Under the pieces are notes generated by a model that was not told where the DNA came from, did no database searches, and saw only the letters and a program-made list of their open reading frames with translations. From a bacterium (GTDB lineage: Bacteria > Bacillota > Clostridia > Lachnospirales > Lachnospiraceae), in NCBI GenBank assembly GCA_030535455.1, contig JAUNJY010000001.1, positions 147,431-211,430 on the forward strand: a DNA stretch of 64,000 bases. Direction: 5' to 3'. Below, one piece after another: positions 1-37,525 of the stretch (the stretch's first letter is position 1; each line of letters opens with the position of its first letter). Made by a program: the position numbers and the translations under genes.

Positions 1-543
1 AGTAGAAAAGTTCTCGATATATTGCTTGCAAATGGAGAGTACGCGGATCATATTATCGTAAGGCGTTAACCCGGTAAGTTCATTTACTATGTCTTTTGAG
101 TAGTACCCTAGACGGAACTTAGAAAAATTCTCATCTTTAATGATTTCTCTAACGGTATCTTGCGAGAAAAGCATATTTACAATTGCCTGTTTAAAGCAGT
201 GGCATTTCTCGTTATTAATGTAACCAGTGTCCTTACAGTCTGAACAAGTGTAAATAGGAGAAAGGTAATCGGCAGGATAACCATTGCTGACTAACAGTTC
301 TTTTTTACACTGGGATAATTCTTCATTTCTATTCTTTAAAGTCTGGATCGCAGAATCATCCCCCATAATTGACAGCTTGGCTGCCTCTACGGAGTAGGTG
401 ATGAGTGAGTCGTCCAATTCTTTGAGGGCAGGAATTTTCATAAACACTTCCTGCTCTCTCTCTTTTAAAATTCGTTTATTATGTGATCGTTTCAGATCAT
501 AATCTCGTTGTATGGCATTGTACTGCCAGTTATTAAGAACCAT
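1..543 (-). CDS. dnaC: DnaC-like replicative helicase loader, 3' end outside window
   Basis: Partial gene read on the minus strand from ATG at 543. The first 181 codons are present and the frame is open to the window edge. The product begins MVLNNWQYNA, has a charged helical N-terminus and a four-Cys cluster (C100, C103, C114, C116) of the kind found just before the AAA+ domain in Firmicutes DnaC/IstB-type loaders. The Walker motifs would lie outside the window, so the ATPase assignment rests on this N-terminal region and the partner gene. A good AGGAGG site precedes the start, 12 bases after the dnaD-like stop, so the two are co-transcribed. Expected role: loading DnaB helicase at origins or restart sites. 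An IstB-type transposition helper is less likely given the neighbour. Confidence 0.75.
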   Translation of the reverse strand, partial: MVLNNWQYNAIQRDYDLKRSHNKRILKEREQEVFMKIPALKELDDSLITYSVEAAKLSIMGDDSAIQTLKNRNEELSQCKKELLVSNGYPADYLSPIYTCSDCKDTGYINNEKCHCFKQAIVNMLFSQDTVREIIKDENFSKFRLGYYSKDIVNELTGLTPYDNMIRVLSICKQYIENFST

Positions 544-555
544 TAAATAGTCCTC

Positions 556-1671
556 CTATTGTTTGTTTAATAAGAGTTGTTCCATTTTTCGAAAATCTTC
601 TTTGGAATAATTTCGTTGCGCAAAATTATTAAACTTATTATTAGCATTTGGTTTAGCTGTAGTCTGTTTCTGGGCATTATAAGCAGGTTTAGCCTGTTTA
701 GCATGATTTTCATCTAGTTTTGTTACGTCAGCAAGAGACTTAACATTGTGCTGTGCCCAGCTGGTAATGATCTTGTCTGCATAATTGAAATCTGGTTTTC
801 CAGTCCGCAAAAGTGTGCGATTGCATGCTTCAATAATAAGTTCAAGTGGAAGATTTAAGTGATTTACCCACTTGTTTATAAATTTTATTTCTATTTCACC
901 AGGTGTTCTATTCAGCCCAAATGCCTTGTTAATAGCTTGGTAGGTTTTATTATATTTATTCGTATATTGTTTTGCTTTTTCCTCTGAGTCGATGCCTTCT
1001 TTGGCCCAGCCCAGAGCAACTGCTTCAACATAGCTTGCACTCTTTTTATTGATGGAGATGCAATACTCAAATAAGAATAAGATTAAGTCTGAAGAGAAGC
1101 CTATATTTTCATATAAATATAGAATTAATTGTTGGTCAGCTGACTTTAGCGGGCGAGCCATATAGCTTTCGACTGCAGCTAAAAGAAGCTGAACATTATC
1201 ATCTTTGCTTAACAGCTCAATTTGAGCTTTTGTATAGGTCGGTTTGATAATTACATCATTTGACATTGGACTCTCTTTTGCTGAAGTTGTCTGAGAGACA
1301 GTATCCGGATGAATAGCAGCTTTATTCTCCTCAATATTTGTTGCATACGGAGGATAGTTCTCTGTCAATGGCGTTGTTGGATTGTTAAATGTAATATTTG
1401 TAATTTGATTGTTTTCGTCTCTAGTTACAAGAATTAGATTTACTTTTTCCCAGTATGCAATGGCGCGCATAATATCTTTTTCGGTGTCTTCTAATTGATC
1501 TGCAATGGTAGAGATAGATAAATCGAATGTATTACTACTTAGACATCGGAGTAAATAAAGATAAACTTTTACATAAGCACCATTTGCAGTTGGCATATAG
1601 CTATCAATGAATATATTCGAAATGATAGTAACGTCGTTGTTATGGTTTGTTCTTAATGATATGGTACTCAT
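556..1671 (-). CDS. DnaD-domain primosomal/replication initiation protein
   Basis: 371 residues. Residues 1-90 look like a winged-helix region, followed by a low-complexity polar linker (about 95-145) and two helical DnaD/DnaB-type C-terminal modules (about 155-230 and 245-315). Each module ends in a Tyr-x3-hydrophobic-x3-Trp pattern (YVEAVALGW and YADKIITSW), the signature that contributes to DNA binding in DnaD. The C-terminus is a basic, Asn/Gln-rich tail. In Firmicutes such proteins remodel the origin and recruit the DnaC-like loader, and the loader gene follows directly. The start at 1671 has GGAGG upstream. Upstream lies a DnaA-box-rich region, which suggests DnaA-linked control. Whether to call it dnaD or dnaB is uncertain because Clostridia often carry a single hybrid protein. 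Confidence 0.85.
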   Translation of the reverse strand: MSTISLRTNHNNDVTIISNIFIDSYMPTANGAYVKVYLYLLRCLSSNTFDLSISTIADQLEDTEKDIMRAIAYWEKVNLILVTRDENNQITNITFNNPTTPLTENYPPYATNIEENKAAIHPDTVSQTTSAKESPMSNDVIIKPTYTKAQIELLSKDDNVQLLLAAVESYMARPLKSADQQLILYLYENIGFSSDLILFLFEYCISINKKSASYVEAVALGWAKEGIDSEEKAKQYTNKYNKTYQAINKAFGLNRTPGEIEIKFINKWVNHLNLPLELIIEACNRTLLRTGKPDFNYADKIITSWAQHNVKSLADVTKLDENHAKQAKPAYNAQKQTTAKPNANNKFNNFAQRNYSKEDFRKMEQLLLNKQ

Positions 1672-1727: not shown

Positions 1728-1813
1728 CTTTGTTGATAGTTACGATTATTATATCACAGAAAAAAAATTAAGAAAATAGCGTAATTATAGATGGTTTTCC
1801 ATAAAAACTCTTC

Positions 1814-2002
1814 TGTGGATAATGTGGACAAAGTGGATAAAAAATACTTGTATTTTGTAGTAAAAAGAAAAATAACCTGTAAACGTTATTTTTGCTGAAA
1901 AAAATACGGTGTTTCTTATCAAAAATAGTTTATGCAAAAATAAAAATATCCACAACCTTTTTTCAAAAATAATGTTGATAAGATTGTGGATATTGTGGAT
2001 AA
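1814..2002. promoter_or_regulatory. Cluster of DnaA-box-like 9-mers between murC and dnaD-like gene
   Basis: Two perfect DnaA boxes (TGTGGATAA at 1814-1822 and 1994-2002) and five single-mismatch boxes (1823-1831, 1832-1840, 1946-1954, 1973-1981, 1985-1993) lie in 189 bp. Six read in the same direction and the 1946 copy is inverted. The three at 1814-1840 are nearly head to tail, as are the three at 1973-2002. Between them is an A/T-rich stretch. DnaA binds TTATCCACA and related 9-mers. This is the only gene-free interval (1672-2002) next to the replication genes. It could be a DnaA-controlled promoter for dnaD-dnaC, a DnaA titration or reactivation site, or part of an origin. The sequence alone cannot decide. 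Confidence 0.65.
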
Positions 2003-3385
2003 CTATTTTCCGAGTAAAGATTCACCGATAGAAACTACATCTCCGGCACCCATTGTTATCAACAGATCACCGTTACCGCATTTTTCTAAAATAATGTTTT
2101 CAATCTCATCAAAGCTTGGGAAGTAGTAAGCATCTTTCCCTTTTTCTTGTAAAAGATTAAGAATATCTTTTGAAGAGATGTCTCCTGGGTTTACTTCACG
2201 AGCTGCATAGATATCTGTTAAAATGATATGGTCTGCAGCTGAAAGTGCATCAGAAAATTCAGGAAGAAATGCTTTAGTTCTTGTATACGTATGAGGCTGG
2301 AAGACAACCCAGATGCTTTTTGCAGGGTAACGTCTAGCAGCTTCCAATGTTGCTTTGATTTCCGTAGGATGATGTGCATAATCATCTATGATAGTGAGTT
2401 CGCCGATCTTTCCTTTATATTGGAAGCGACGGTCTGTTCCACAGAATTCTTGTAAGCCTTGTTCAGCAACTGCAAATGGAATTTTTGTAATGTAACCAAC
2501 TGCTAATGCAGCTAATGAGTTAGAAATGTTATGTCTTCCTACTACCGATAAGTGCATACGGTGTTTGAATTCTCCATTTACATATAAGTCATAACAGCCA
2601 TAGCCATTTTCATCATACTCAATATTGTCTGCTGCAAAGAAATCTTTTTCTTTGTCAAAACCATATGTGATCACGTTGCAAGTTAAATCACTAGTGATTT
2701 CTTCATATTGATCGATTTCCCCATTAATAATTAGGGTTCCGTCTTCAGGAAGTCTATGTGCAAATTCTTTGAATGATGCACGAATGTCATTAATGTCTTT
2801 AAAGAAGTCCATATGATCTTCTTCAATATTAAGGATAACGCTGATTTTTGGATTGAAGTGCAAGAAGCTGTTTGTGTATTCACATGCTTCTGTTATGAAA
2901 TTACTGCTTTTTCCGATTCTTAAGTTTCCGTTGATTGCTTTTAAGATACCACCAACAGAGATTGTTGGGTCTTTTTCACCAGCAAGAAAGATGTGAGATA
3001 CCATACTAGTCGTTGTTGTTTTTCCGTGAGTTCCAGCGATCGCGATTGGTGTTTCGTAATTTGTCATTACCTGGCCAACCATTTCAGCTCTAGGCATCAT
3101 AGGGATTCCAAGTTCTTCTGCAGCCATAAATTCTGGATTATTTTTGCTAATTGCTGCTGTGTAAACAACTAAATCGATATTTTTAGTAATATTTTGAGCT
3201 CTTTGACCATATAATATACTAATGCCCATTGTTTCAAGGTGTTTTGTAATGTTGCTTTCTTTCGCATCAGAACCGCTAATAGTAAAACCAGCACTATGTA
3301 ACAGTTCGGCGAAACCACTCATACTAATTCCTCCTATGCCCATAAAATAAATATGGCAAGGATGTTTAAAATCAATTTTATACAT
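2003..3385 (-). CDS. murC: UDP-N-acetylmuramate--L-alanine ligase
   Basis: Mur ligase that adds L-Ala to UDP-MurNAc in cytoplasmic peptidoglycan precursor synthesis, using ATP. From the ATG at 3385 it is 460 residues. Visible marks: N-terminal Rossmann GIGGISMSG that binds the UDP sugar, ATP P-loop AGTHGKTTT (about residues 117-125), NIEEDHMDFF, and DDYAHHPTEI and QPHTYTRT in the C-terminal Mur domain. A GTG four codons further upstream (3397) is in frame but directly abuts the AGGAC ribosome site, so ATG 3385, 12 bases from AGGAC, is preferred; the choice is not certain. It ends exactly next to a perfect DnaA box and precedes the dnaD-like gene in the same direction. Confidence 0.96.
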   Translation of the reverse strand: MYKIDFKHPCHIYFMGIGGISMSGFAELLHSAGFTISGSDAKESNITKHLETMGISILYGQRAQNITKNIDLVVYTAAISKNNPEFMAAEELGIPMMPRAEMVGQVMTNYETPIAIAGTHGKTTTTSMVSHIFLAGEKDPTISVGGILKAINGNLRIGKSSNFITEACEYTNSFLHFNPKISVILNIEEDHMDFFKDINDIRASFKEFAHRLPEDGTLIINGEIDQYEEITSDLTCNVITYGFDKEKDFFAADNIEYDENGYGCYDLYVNGEFKHRMHLSVVGRHNISNSLAALAVGYITKIPFAVAEQGLQEFCGTDRRFQYKGKIGELTIIDDYAHHPTEIKATLEAARRYPAKSIWVVFQPHTYTRTKAFLPEFSDALSAADHIILTDIYAAREVNPGDISSKDILNLLQEKGKDAYYFPSFDEIENIILEKCGNGDLLITMGAGDVVSIGESLLGK

Positions 3386-3435
3386 AATAGAGTACACGTC
3401 CTATTCTTATATTTTATATATGATATTATATTGTT

Positions 3436-36376: not shown

Positions 36377-37525
36377 GTGGGCGCAGGAAAGAACCTAAGA
36401 ACGATAGGAAAGCAGAACATCCATAATGTTATTAAACTGCTTATTATGGAGAAGTCACTTTCTAGAAAAGAACTTTCAGACCGGCTAGGGCTTACAAAGA
36501 TGACAGTCGGAAATATTGTCAATCATTTAAAAGAAGAAGGGTATGTAACAGAGACACGAGACACGGGTGAGAATCATACTATAGGACCAAAGCCAACAGC
36601 AATAACAATTGTTCCGAAGAGGATATTAGCTGTTGGTGTACATATATCATCAACTAAAATAACCACAATGTTAATTGATATTGTGGATGGAATACTAATC
36701 CAGAAAGAGGAGTCTGTGGATAACTTAGAAAGTAACCAGCAGCTTGCCAGTGTTATTAAGCAAATGGTTGGAGATCTGTTATCTGACAGTAATGACCTGG
36801 ATTTATATGTGGTGGCAATAGGAGTTACATTTGATGGGGCAGTGGATTTAAAGACCGGTAAGATTACAGTAAGTATGGATCGCCTTGAAAAAGAGGTAAT
36901 AGCAATAAAGTCTATCTTAGAGAAGAAATTTAGACTTCCAACAATCGTAGGAAATGATATTGAGGGAGCGTCTATTGCTGAGTTGATATATGGTGCCAAT
37001 AGGGGACCTGTCGGGACTTATTATCTAAATATGGGAGAGACAATACGAGGAGCATATATCACTGACTATACGATTCTTTATGGGGATACTTCTAGATGTG
37101 GAGAGGTTGGCCATATGTCTGTAAAATATGATGGACCGCTTTGTTTATGTGGGTCTAGAGGCTGCTATCATCTATATGCTTCTACTGAACTTTTACTTAA
37201 AAATAGTAACAGTCATTCCATCGATGAGATAAACCTAAAGCTTCAGGATCGTGATCCATTGGTATTACGGACGCTTGAAGACTTTATTCAGATTAGCAGC
37301 GTGGTATTTTCCAATATTGTTCATTTGTATAGTCCAAACTATATACTAGTTGGAGGTGAGCTGGCAAAACTCGATTATGCTATTTATAAAAAAATCGAGC
37401 GTCTTTTAAACGAACGTATTTTATTTAAAAGAGAAAGATATGTAAAGGTTGTAATTAGTGATGTTAAGACAAAGGCAAACACTATGGGAGCAGCCTTGAT
37501 CATTTTAAGAGAGTTGTTTACATAA
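36377..37525 (+). CDS. ROK-family transcriptional regulator
   Basis: 382 residues from GTG 36377 (AGAGGAGAA upstream). N-terminal winged helix (about 12-65; SRKELSDRLGLTKMTVGNIV) binds DNA, followed by a sugar-kinase-like ROK domain. The ROK zinc motif is present in full as CGEVGHMSV followed by CLCGSRGCYH, and GNDIEGASIAE is at the usual position of the catalytic Asp. NagC/XylR-type proteins of this family sense sugars; no sugar operon is next door, so the ligand is unknown. Convergent with rpoD. Confidence 0.9.
   Translation: MGAGKNLRTIGKQNIHNVIKLLIMEKSLSRKELSDRLGLTKMTVGNIVNHLKEEGYVTETRDTGENHTIGPKPTAITIVPKRILAVGVHISSTKITTMLIDIVDGILIQKEESVDNLESNQQLASVIKQMVGDLLSDSNDLDLYVVAIGVTFDGAVDLKTGKITVSMDRLEKEVIAIKSILEKKFRLPTIVGNDIEGASIAELIYGANRGPVGTYYLNMGETIRGAYITDYTILYGDTSRCGEVGHMSVKYDGPLCLCGSRGCYHLYASTELLLKNSNSHSIDEINLKLQDRDPLVLRTLEDFIQISSVVFSNIVHLYSPNYILVGGELAKLDYAIYKKIERLLNERILFKRERYVKVVISDVKTKANTMGAALIILRELFT

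Follow-up and report, generated by a model that had tools for sequence, protein, structure and literature searches.

The window, by which we mean the whole stretch of 64,000 nucleotides analysed here (C122:147431-211430, from a source genome of 4.35 Mb in 126 contigs), opens with a series of three genes that are all read leftward, namely murC, then dnaD and then a gene for a DnaC/DnaI-like ATPase. The last of these ORFs matches NCBIfam PRK06835 ('ATP-binding protein') above the cut-off and, more weakly, the DnaC, DnaI and DnaA models as well as Pfam IstB and Bac_DnaA. A sequence-only reading of this DNA had placed a cluster of DnaA boxes directly upstream of a DnaD-domain gene and a DnaC-like gene, and the profile matches agree with these gene identities and with their order. 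The DnaA protein encoded in the same genome contains NRDHTTVLHG, which we take to be the box-reading motif of DnaA domain IV. The features of the locus, in window coordinates, are:

1..543, (-) strand: dnaC/dnaI-like AAA+ helicase-loader gene, N-terminal part (full ORF C122:146966-147973)
556..1671, (-) strand: dnaD-domain replication-initiation gene, 371 aa (Pfam DnaB_2 5e-38; NCBIfam DnaD_dom 1.1e-23)
1748..1753, (-) strand: -10 element TATAAT of the predicted dnaD promoter, with a TG extension at 1755-1756 and a weak -35, TTTTCT, at 1771-1776
1814..1840, (-) strand: array 2, three abutting direct DnaA boxes, TTATCCACT, TTGTCCACA and TTATCCACA (dnaD sense)
1936..1994, (-) strand: intrinsic terminator of murC, with the 5' arm at 1980-1994, the 3' arm at 1945-1959 and a T-rich tail
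1973..2002, (-) strand: array 1, TTATCCACA-ATATCCACA-atc-TTATCAACA, its first base directly after the murC stop codon
1814-1822 and 1994-2002, both (-) strand: perfect DnaA box TTATCCACA
1823-1831 (-), 1832-1840 (-), 1946-1954 (+), 1973-1981 (-) and 1985-1993 (-): one-mismatch DnaA boxes
2003..3397, (-) strand: murC (Pfam Mur ligase domains)

Scanning the 189 bp at 1814-2002, in the gap between murC and dnaD-dnaC, returned seven DnaA boxes, two of them perfect and five with a single mismatch, all within the span given by the sequence-only reading; the lone perfect box that it had noticed near 36716 was likewise recovered (36715-36723) and is the only other perfect one in the 64-kb window. Boxes with at most one mismatch number 32 in the window, versus 21 +/- 4.4 in shuffles, a rate at which about 0.06 boxes would be expected in 189 bp, where seven were found. 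The densest 250 bp of the whole 211-kb contig coincides with the murC-dnaD cluster (eight boxes, one of them inside murC) and exceeds both sides of oriC, where the best 250 bp hold six boxes (dnaA-rpmH side) and five boxes (dnaA-dnaN side). The genome-wide count that had been proposed as a check gave 72 perfect boxes versus 25 matches to a reversed control pattern.

Conservation of the cluster was followed in two sets of loci. Relatives of dnaD were present in 58 of 61 genomes, and the upstream stretches were taken for all 58 (for 10 relatives, a longer stretch was used in place of the first copy); the named set, obtained in a separate scan, comprises the best 80 loci of a longer list. Among the relatives, gaps of 100-800 bp contain at least two boxes in 40/44 cases and at least three in 34/44; six other gaps are shorter than 100 bp and two are longer than 800 bp, both with at least four boxes, and the six relatives that lack murC in the stretch examined have no boxes within 700 bp (two stretches being short, at contig ends). 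Among the named loci, each of the 74 gaps in the 100-800 bp range has two or more boxes and 72 of them three or more, the remainder being two gaps above 800 bp with boxes, one gap of 14 bp and three loci without murC upstream, two of which are boxed. From the 129 murC-dnaD stretches, after exclusion of 11 gaps outside 100-800 bp and five near-duplicates, we retained a non-redundant set of 113 intergenic regions from Lachnospiraceae and kin (43 relatives and 70 named loci); two intergenic regions are identical letter for letter in both sets. At least two boxes are present in 109 of these 113 gaps, and at least three in 101. The cluster is, thus, conserved at murC-dnaD, and the lack of conservation in close relatives that the sequence-only reading had named as damaging to its case is clearly not what these genomes hold.

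The boxes are also concentrated in the gap, since in the same 74 named loci their density is 16.5/kb inside it versus 0.52/kb in the flanks, with the densest 250 bp inside the gap in 73. They are arranged predominantly in the same orientation (513 direct versus 59 inverted), with spacings of 9 bp (203) or 12 bp (57). When murC and dnaD are separated by at most 60 bp, six of the seven loci have no neighbouring box pair in the 3.5-4 kb upstream of dnaD, and the exception, L075, carries a pair of adjoining boxes at the end of murC. In L087, where murC and dnaD are 1.7 kb apart with another ORF, the boxes stay by murC and none was found within 700 bp of dnaD, and in G046 (L172) two perfect boxes follow murC, the next gene being, by reading, efp and not dnaD. 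Four loci (L064, L069, L078 and L080) have no murC in the approximately 3.3 kb upstream of dnaD and no boxes within 700 bp. These observations (boxes kept with murC in L087 and L075, no dnaD in L172, and boxless dnaD genes away from murC) argue against a strict link to dnaD. An ancestral 'murC site' may be suggested by L087, L075 and L172, but the cases are few.

The first box of array 1 is located 0-3 nt past the murC stop codon in 94/113 intergenic regions. The array overlaps the murC terminator, whose 5' arm contains the box at 1985-1993 and whose 3' arm contains the apparent inverted box at 1946-1954. RNA folding of the hairpin in the window gave -20.1 kcal/mol (z -4.56). A hairpin arm pair was identified in 89/113 intergenic regions, with at least six T within the next 10 positions in 82/89, and the stem extends at least 3 bp past the box in 70/89 species, versus 9.9% with arms mixed between species, a comparison biased toward the 70/89 figure by the choice of the best arm pair per sequence, which was not made in the mixed-species control. 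The array 1 part, therefore, combines a stable hairpin, a T-run and compensatory stem change, the properties by which an intrinsic terminator is recognized; a simple terminator scanner, allowing loops of 3-8, listed no terminator here. Since the segment 1946-1954 pairs, as 3' arm, with the arm that carries 1985-1993, it is not necessarily an independent site, and we replaced its reading as a box of its own by that of a terminator arm; the five one-mismatch boxes of the sequence-only reading all exist, but this one is perhaps not a separate site. With one box of array 1 in a conserved terminator arm, part of the 'cluster' is the murC terminator. The second box of the array is constrained as a terminator arm too, whereas the first box, in the window, is outside the stem except for one base.

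With a terminator-like hairpin behind murC, dnaD is expected to depend on a separate promoter. An extended -10 of the TATGCTATAAT type is assignable in 102/113 intergenic regions, a pattern that can also match by chance; TGCTATAA is present in 37 sequences versus 0.6 expected, and a degenerate TTTNCT occurs at the -35 place of the dnaD promoters across the intergenic regions. A generic promoter scanner did not list the predicted dnaD promoter. The nearest box of array 2 ends 60 bp upstream of the predicted -10; across the intergenic regions, this array typically has 2-4 boxes, mostly abutting as 9-bp direct repeats, and mostly lies upstream of the dnaD -10 at a distance of 49-88 bp. At the level of sequence, several DnaA boxes are, thus, found near a predicted promoter, as expected for a DnaA-regulated promoter. 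The array 2 stretch of the window showed no RNA fold (z +1.08), so that its boxes would act as DNA sites, if at all.

Two other motifs were observed in the intergenic regions. The motif TTTACATA(A) is situated 61-64 or 72-76 nt past the murC stop in 21 of its 33 forward occurrences, and TTTACATA has a density of 1.0/kb in murC-dnaD intergenic regions versus 0.29/kb in other non-coding DNA. The sequence TTCGACA, considered as a Spo0A box, is enriched relative to shuffles, yet its density of 0.58/kb compares with 0.32/kb in other non-coding stretches, and the idea was dropped.

The layout of the boxes relative to the dnaD promoter is conserved in the relatives, with a caveat concerning the 9-bp box register. 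Between the last perfect box and the -10, distances cluster at 49, 59, 69 and 79 bp and, weakly, at 87-88 bp (n=74), and the first-to-first distances between the two arrays are near 88, 100, 108, 120, 132, 144, 155, 166, 177 and 188 bp, apart from four shorter cases of 45-76 bp (n=80), which corresponds to steps of about 10 bp for box-to-promoter and about 11 bp for array-to-array distances. Kinship was allowed for by using path-independent pairs on the dnaD tree, with 2000 smeared sets as nulls. In this paired test, phasing was observed for box to -10 (z 2.94, 33 pairs, 4/2000 nulls as high), perfect box to -10 (z 3.81, 25 pairs, 0/2000) and array 1 to array 2 (z 3.26, 30 pairs, 1/2000). Array 2 thus favours one helical face with respect to the -10, and array 1 one face with respect to array 2. 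Three control distances were unphased: z was 0.10 from the -10 to the dnaD start, 0.54 from the murC stop to the dnaD start and 0.26 from the murC stop to the -10. A fourth control, between array 2 and the dnaD start, was on the borderline (z 2.14, 112/2000). The raw test, which is blind to kinship, also found array 1 to -10 (R 0.52, n=84) and terminator arm to -10 (R 0.66, n=44) periodic near 11 bp, and -10 to dnaD start aperiodic (best R 0.17); given this, raw R alone proves little and we relied on the paired test. The 9-bp box register is a partial confounder of the box-to-promoter phasing, whose best period is 9.25-9.5, as losing one box moves the distance by 9 bp, near one helical turn. 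A fixed 9-bp lattice predicts 49/58/67/76, while the observed modes are 49/59/69/79, and for the array-to-array distances a 9-bp period is unsupported (z -0.27).

Tandem boxes are also present at other loci. The exact 18-mer formed by two abutting boxes occurs 53 times in 27/61 genomes (reversed control, 0): 29 times at murC-dnaD (one of these, in the L087 genome, next to murC alone), 12 times upstream of hpf, twice at an oriC and 10 times elsewhere. In the genome of the window, five sites are at most one mismatch away from it, namely the two arrays, a site in front of hpf and a pair flanking a DUF1540 gene. Class-wide, the 18-mer was found in 27/196 genomes; both matches from the same family are at murC-dnaD, and the other 25, one of which is at a dnaA-dnaN junction, have neither dnaD nor murC in their 3-kb loci, a span that a distant dnaD could escape. 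As these class-wide matches lie elsewhere, the murC-dnaD location is a trait of Lachnospiraceae and near kin.

Regarding hpf, which codes for a ribosome hibernation factor of the S30AE family, at least three boxes occur within 700 bp upstream in 17/30 loci, and these tandem arrays suggest, from sequence, a possible link of DnaA to ribosome hibernation. The loci concerned are:

Upstream of hpf: G000:C29:58918 (L183, L254); L207, L215, L222, L225, L228, L239, L244-L246, L250-L279

Tandem boxes flank the small DUF1540 gene of the window's genome on both sides (G000:C71:105696 and 106156; L184, L185) and are also seen near a gene resembling it in G003 (L247). Seven class-wide 18-mers are just 3' of DnaB-type helicase genes in two other families (L285, L292-L297; by reading, checked by Pfam for L296 and L297), once more next to genes of replication, and in one family of the class three of four loci with tandem boxes have a gene for a sigma-70-type factor nearby (L301-L304; L303 by Pfam, the others by reading). 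In L240 (G019:C132), oriC (the dnaA-rnpA side, by reading) is crowded with tandem and inverted DnaA boxes.

The sequence-only reading had offered three explanations for the cluster: a DnaA-regulated promoter, a DnaA titration or reactivation locus, and an origin separate from dnaA-dnaN. The last would make it a second or ancestral replication origin, in keeping with a box density at least equal to that of oriC, with two box groups separated by AT-rich DNA, which recall a bipartite origin, and with the adjacent helicase-loader genes. However, dnaA (C122:9452-10822) already has an ordinary oriC layout, with dnaN on one side, rpmH/rnpA on the other (by reading) and flanking box clusters, and it is there that the cumulative GC skew of the contig turns. 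The curve climbs on from dnaA to beyond the murC-dnaD cluster, at a distance of 139 kb, interrupted by one small dip near C122:40-45 kb. G003 and G061 (Anaerocolumna sp. MB42-C2, L094), both complete genomes, show negative skew to either side of the dnaD cluster and positive skew past dnaA, 14/14 20-kb stretches being as expected. In all three genomes (these two and G000, that of the window) the skew switches at dnaA, 125-279 kb from the cluster, and no switch was found at murC-dnaD; the cluster is, therefore, no origin, an explanation that these data contradict and to which we give hardly any weight. A strict DnaA-trio was found in 0/113 intergenic regions, and a looser form likewise missed the oriC of the window's own genome. 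The cluster could also be a by-product of the murC terminator, whose hairpin arms would happen to read as DnaA boxes: the second box of array 1 is in the 5' arm, the inverted box is in the 3' arm and their flanks co-vary. Nevertheless, the first box of array 1 is essentially outside the stem, and array 2, which has no hairpin, is conserved and phased, which makes this explanation very improbable, although slightly less so than an origin.

The main rival is a reservoir or activity-control site for DnaA, comparable to the oriC-proximal box clusters of B. subtilis or to datA/DARS of E. coli, that would hold or remodel DnaA, thereby timing initiation at oriC, and for which the place before dnaD would be incidental. 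A DnaA-box cluster at a conserved place outside oriC is what is expected of a titration or reactivation locus, and this explanation is compatible with the proximity to oriC (dnaA and dnaD are on one contig in 6/7 genomes checked, the two genes being co-oriented at a distance of 45-279 kb; one of these six, G008, has only two boxes in the gap). A reservoir role would explain both this proximity and the arrays at other loci, such as those upstream of hpf and the 25/27 class-wide matches away from dnaD and murC, and it agrees with the boxes that remain by murC in L087 and L075. Conversely, it requires neither the helical phasing to the dnaD -10 nor the absence of an array from 6/7 loci where murC and dnaD nearly abut, and the distance to dnaA varies six-fold. 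We consider it rather unlikely.

On balance, we favour a cis-regulatory region by which the initiator DnaA would control the dnaD-dnaC (helicase-loader) operon, with a probability of roughly 0.58. Of the three explanations, a DnaA-regulated promoter is the best supported by the sequences, through the conserved boxes, the conserved extended -10 and the helical phasing, and promoter control would explain both the phasing to the -10 and the usual absence of arrays when dnaD directly follows murC. DnaA would oligomerise on both arrays, whose first boxes are mostly 88-188 bp apart, and the complexes on arrays 1 and 2 may touch through DNA looping, the array 2 end contacting RNA polymerase; the supply of helicase loader would, in this way, track free DnaA. 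The complex could also keep several DnaA molecules near oriC, and promoter control and a reservoir role may both be true. As to the sign of regulation, the upstream and phased position of the array and the weak -35 suggest activation more than repression, which is a guess. More tentatively, and with clearly less confidence than in DnaA control of the operon itself, a Lachnospiraceae-wide feedback circuit can be envisaged, in which DnaA filaments on the two phased arrays would loop and directly switch the helicase-loader operon, so that the initiator sets the supply of its loading partner, DnaD could close the loop, and the same tandem code would serve again at hpf, thereby connecting DnaA with ribosome hibernation.

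To our knowledge, the matching of helicase-loader supply to initiation has been little studied beyond Escherichia coli and Bacillus subtilis. Searches of open-access literature found no DnaA binding or expression data for the species considered here, and DnaA boxes at murC-dnaD appear in no title or abstract opening that they returned, a scope that mostly leaves out subscription papers and does not establish absence from print. From the element one would predict that DnaA directly controls dnaD-dnaC in a large family of gut bacteria, and the murC-dnaD set provides clean natural tandem 9-bp arrays for studies of DnaA oligomer geometry and looping.

In B. subtilis, DnaD reportedly inhibits cooperative DNA binding by DnaA, and multiple DnaA-box clusters are said to exist near but outside oriC (Okumura, 2012), from which the region described here differs in its murC-dnaD position, its tandem 9-bp layout and its coupling to a predicted promoter. 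DnaA also acts in B. subtilis as a transcription factor, activating sda and repressing ywlC, vpr, yyzF-yydD, trmE-noc and ywcI-sacT, and its DNA-binding ability is affected by DnaD, according to PMC4447404. The murC-dnaD region resembles those promoters in having groups of DnaA boxes outside oriC; dnaD is absent from the promoters named in the introduction of PMC4447404, whereas here the helicase-loader operon is the candidate target. The murC-dnaD boxes, moreover, follow one another in a single orientation at 9-bp spacing, forming two phased arrays, one of which is built into the terminator of the upstream gene. With datA, DARS1 and DARS2 of E. coli, through which the chromosome acts on DnaA away from oriC, the likeness is that of a site outside oriC, and B. 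subtilis is described as lacking datA/DARS loci and IHF (PMC13220808). Bipartite oriC regions (B. subtilis, Helicobacter pylori and Clostridioides difficile) have two box clusters thought to be joined by looping (PMC7561715); the murC-dnaD region similarly has two box groups, for which looping is our proposal, but it has no dnaA between them, no skew switch and no demonstrated unwinding element. Judged from sequence, the element would, thus, differ from known DnaA-box control regions by its target operon, its two phased tandem arrays and its overlap with a terminator.
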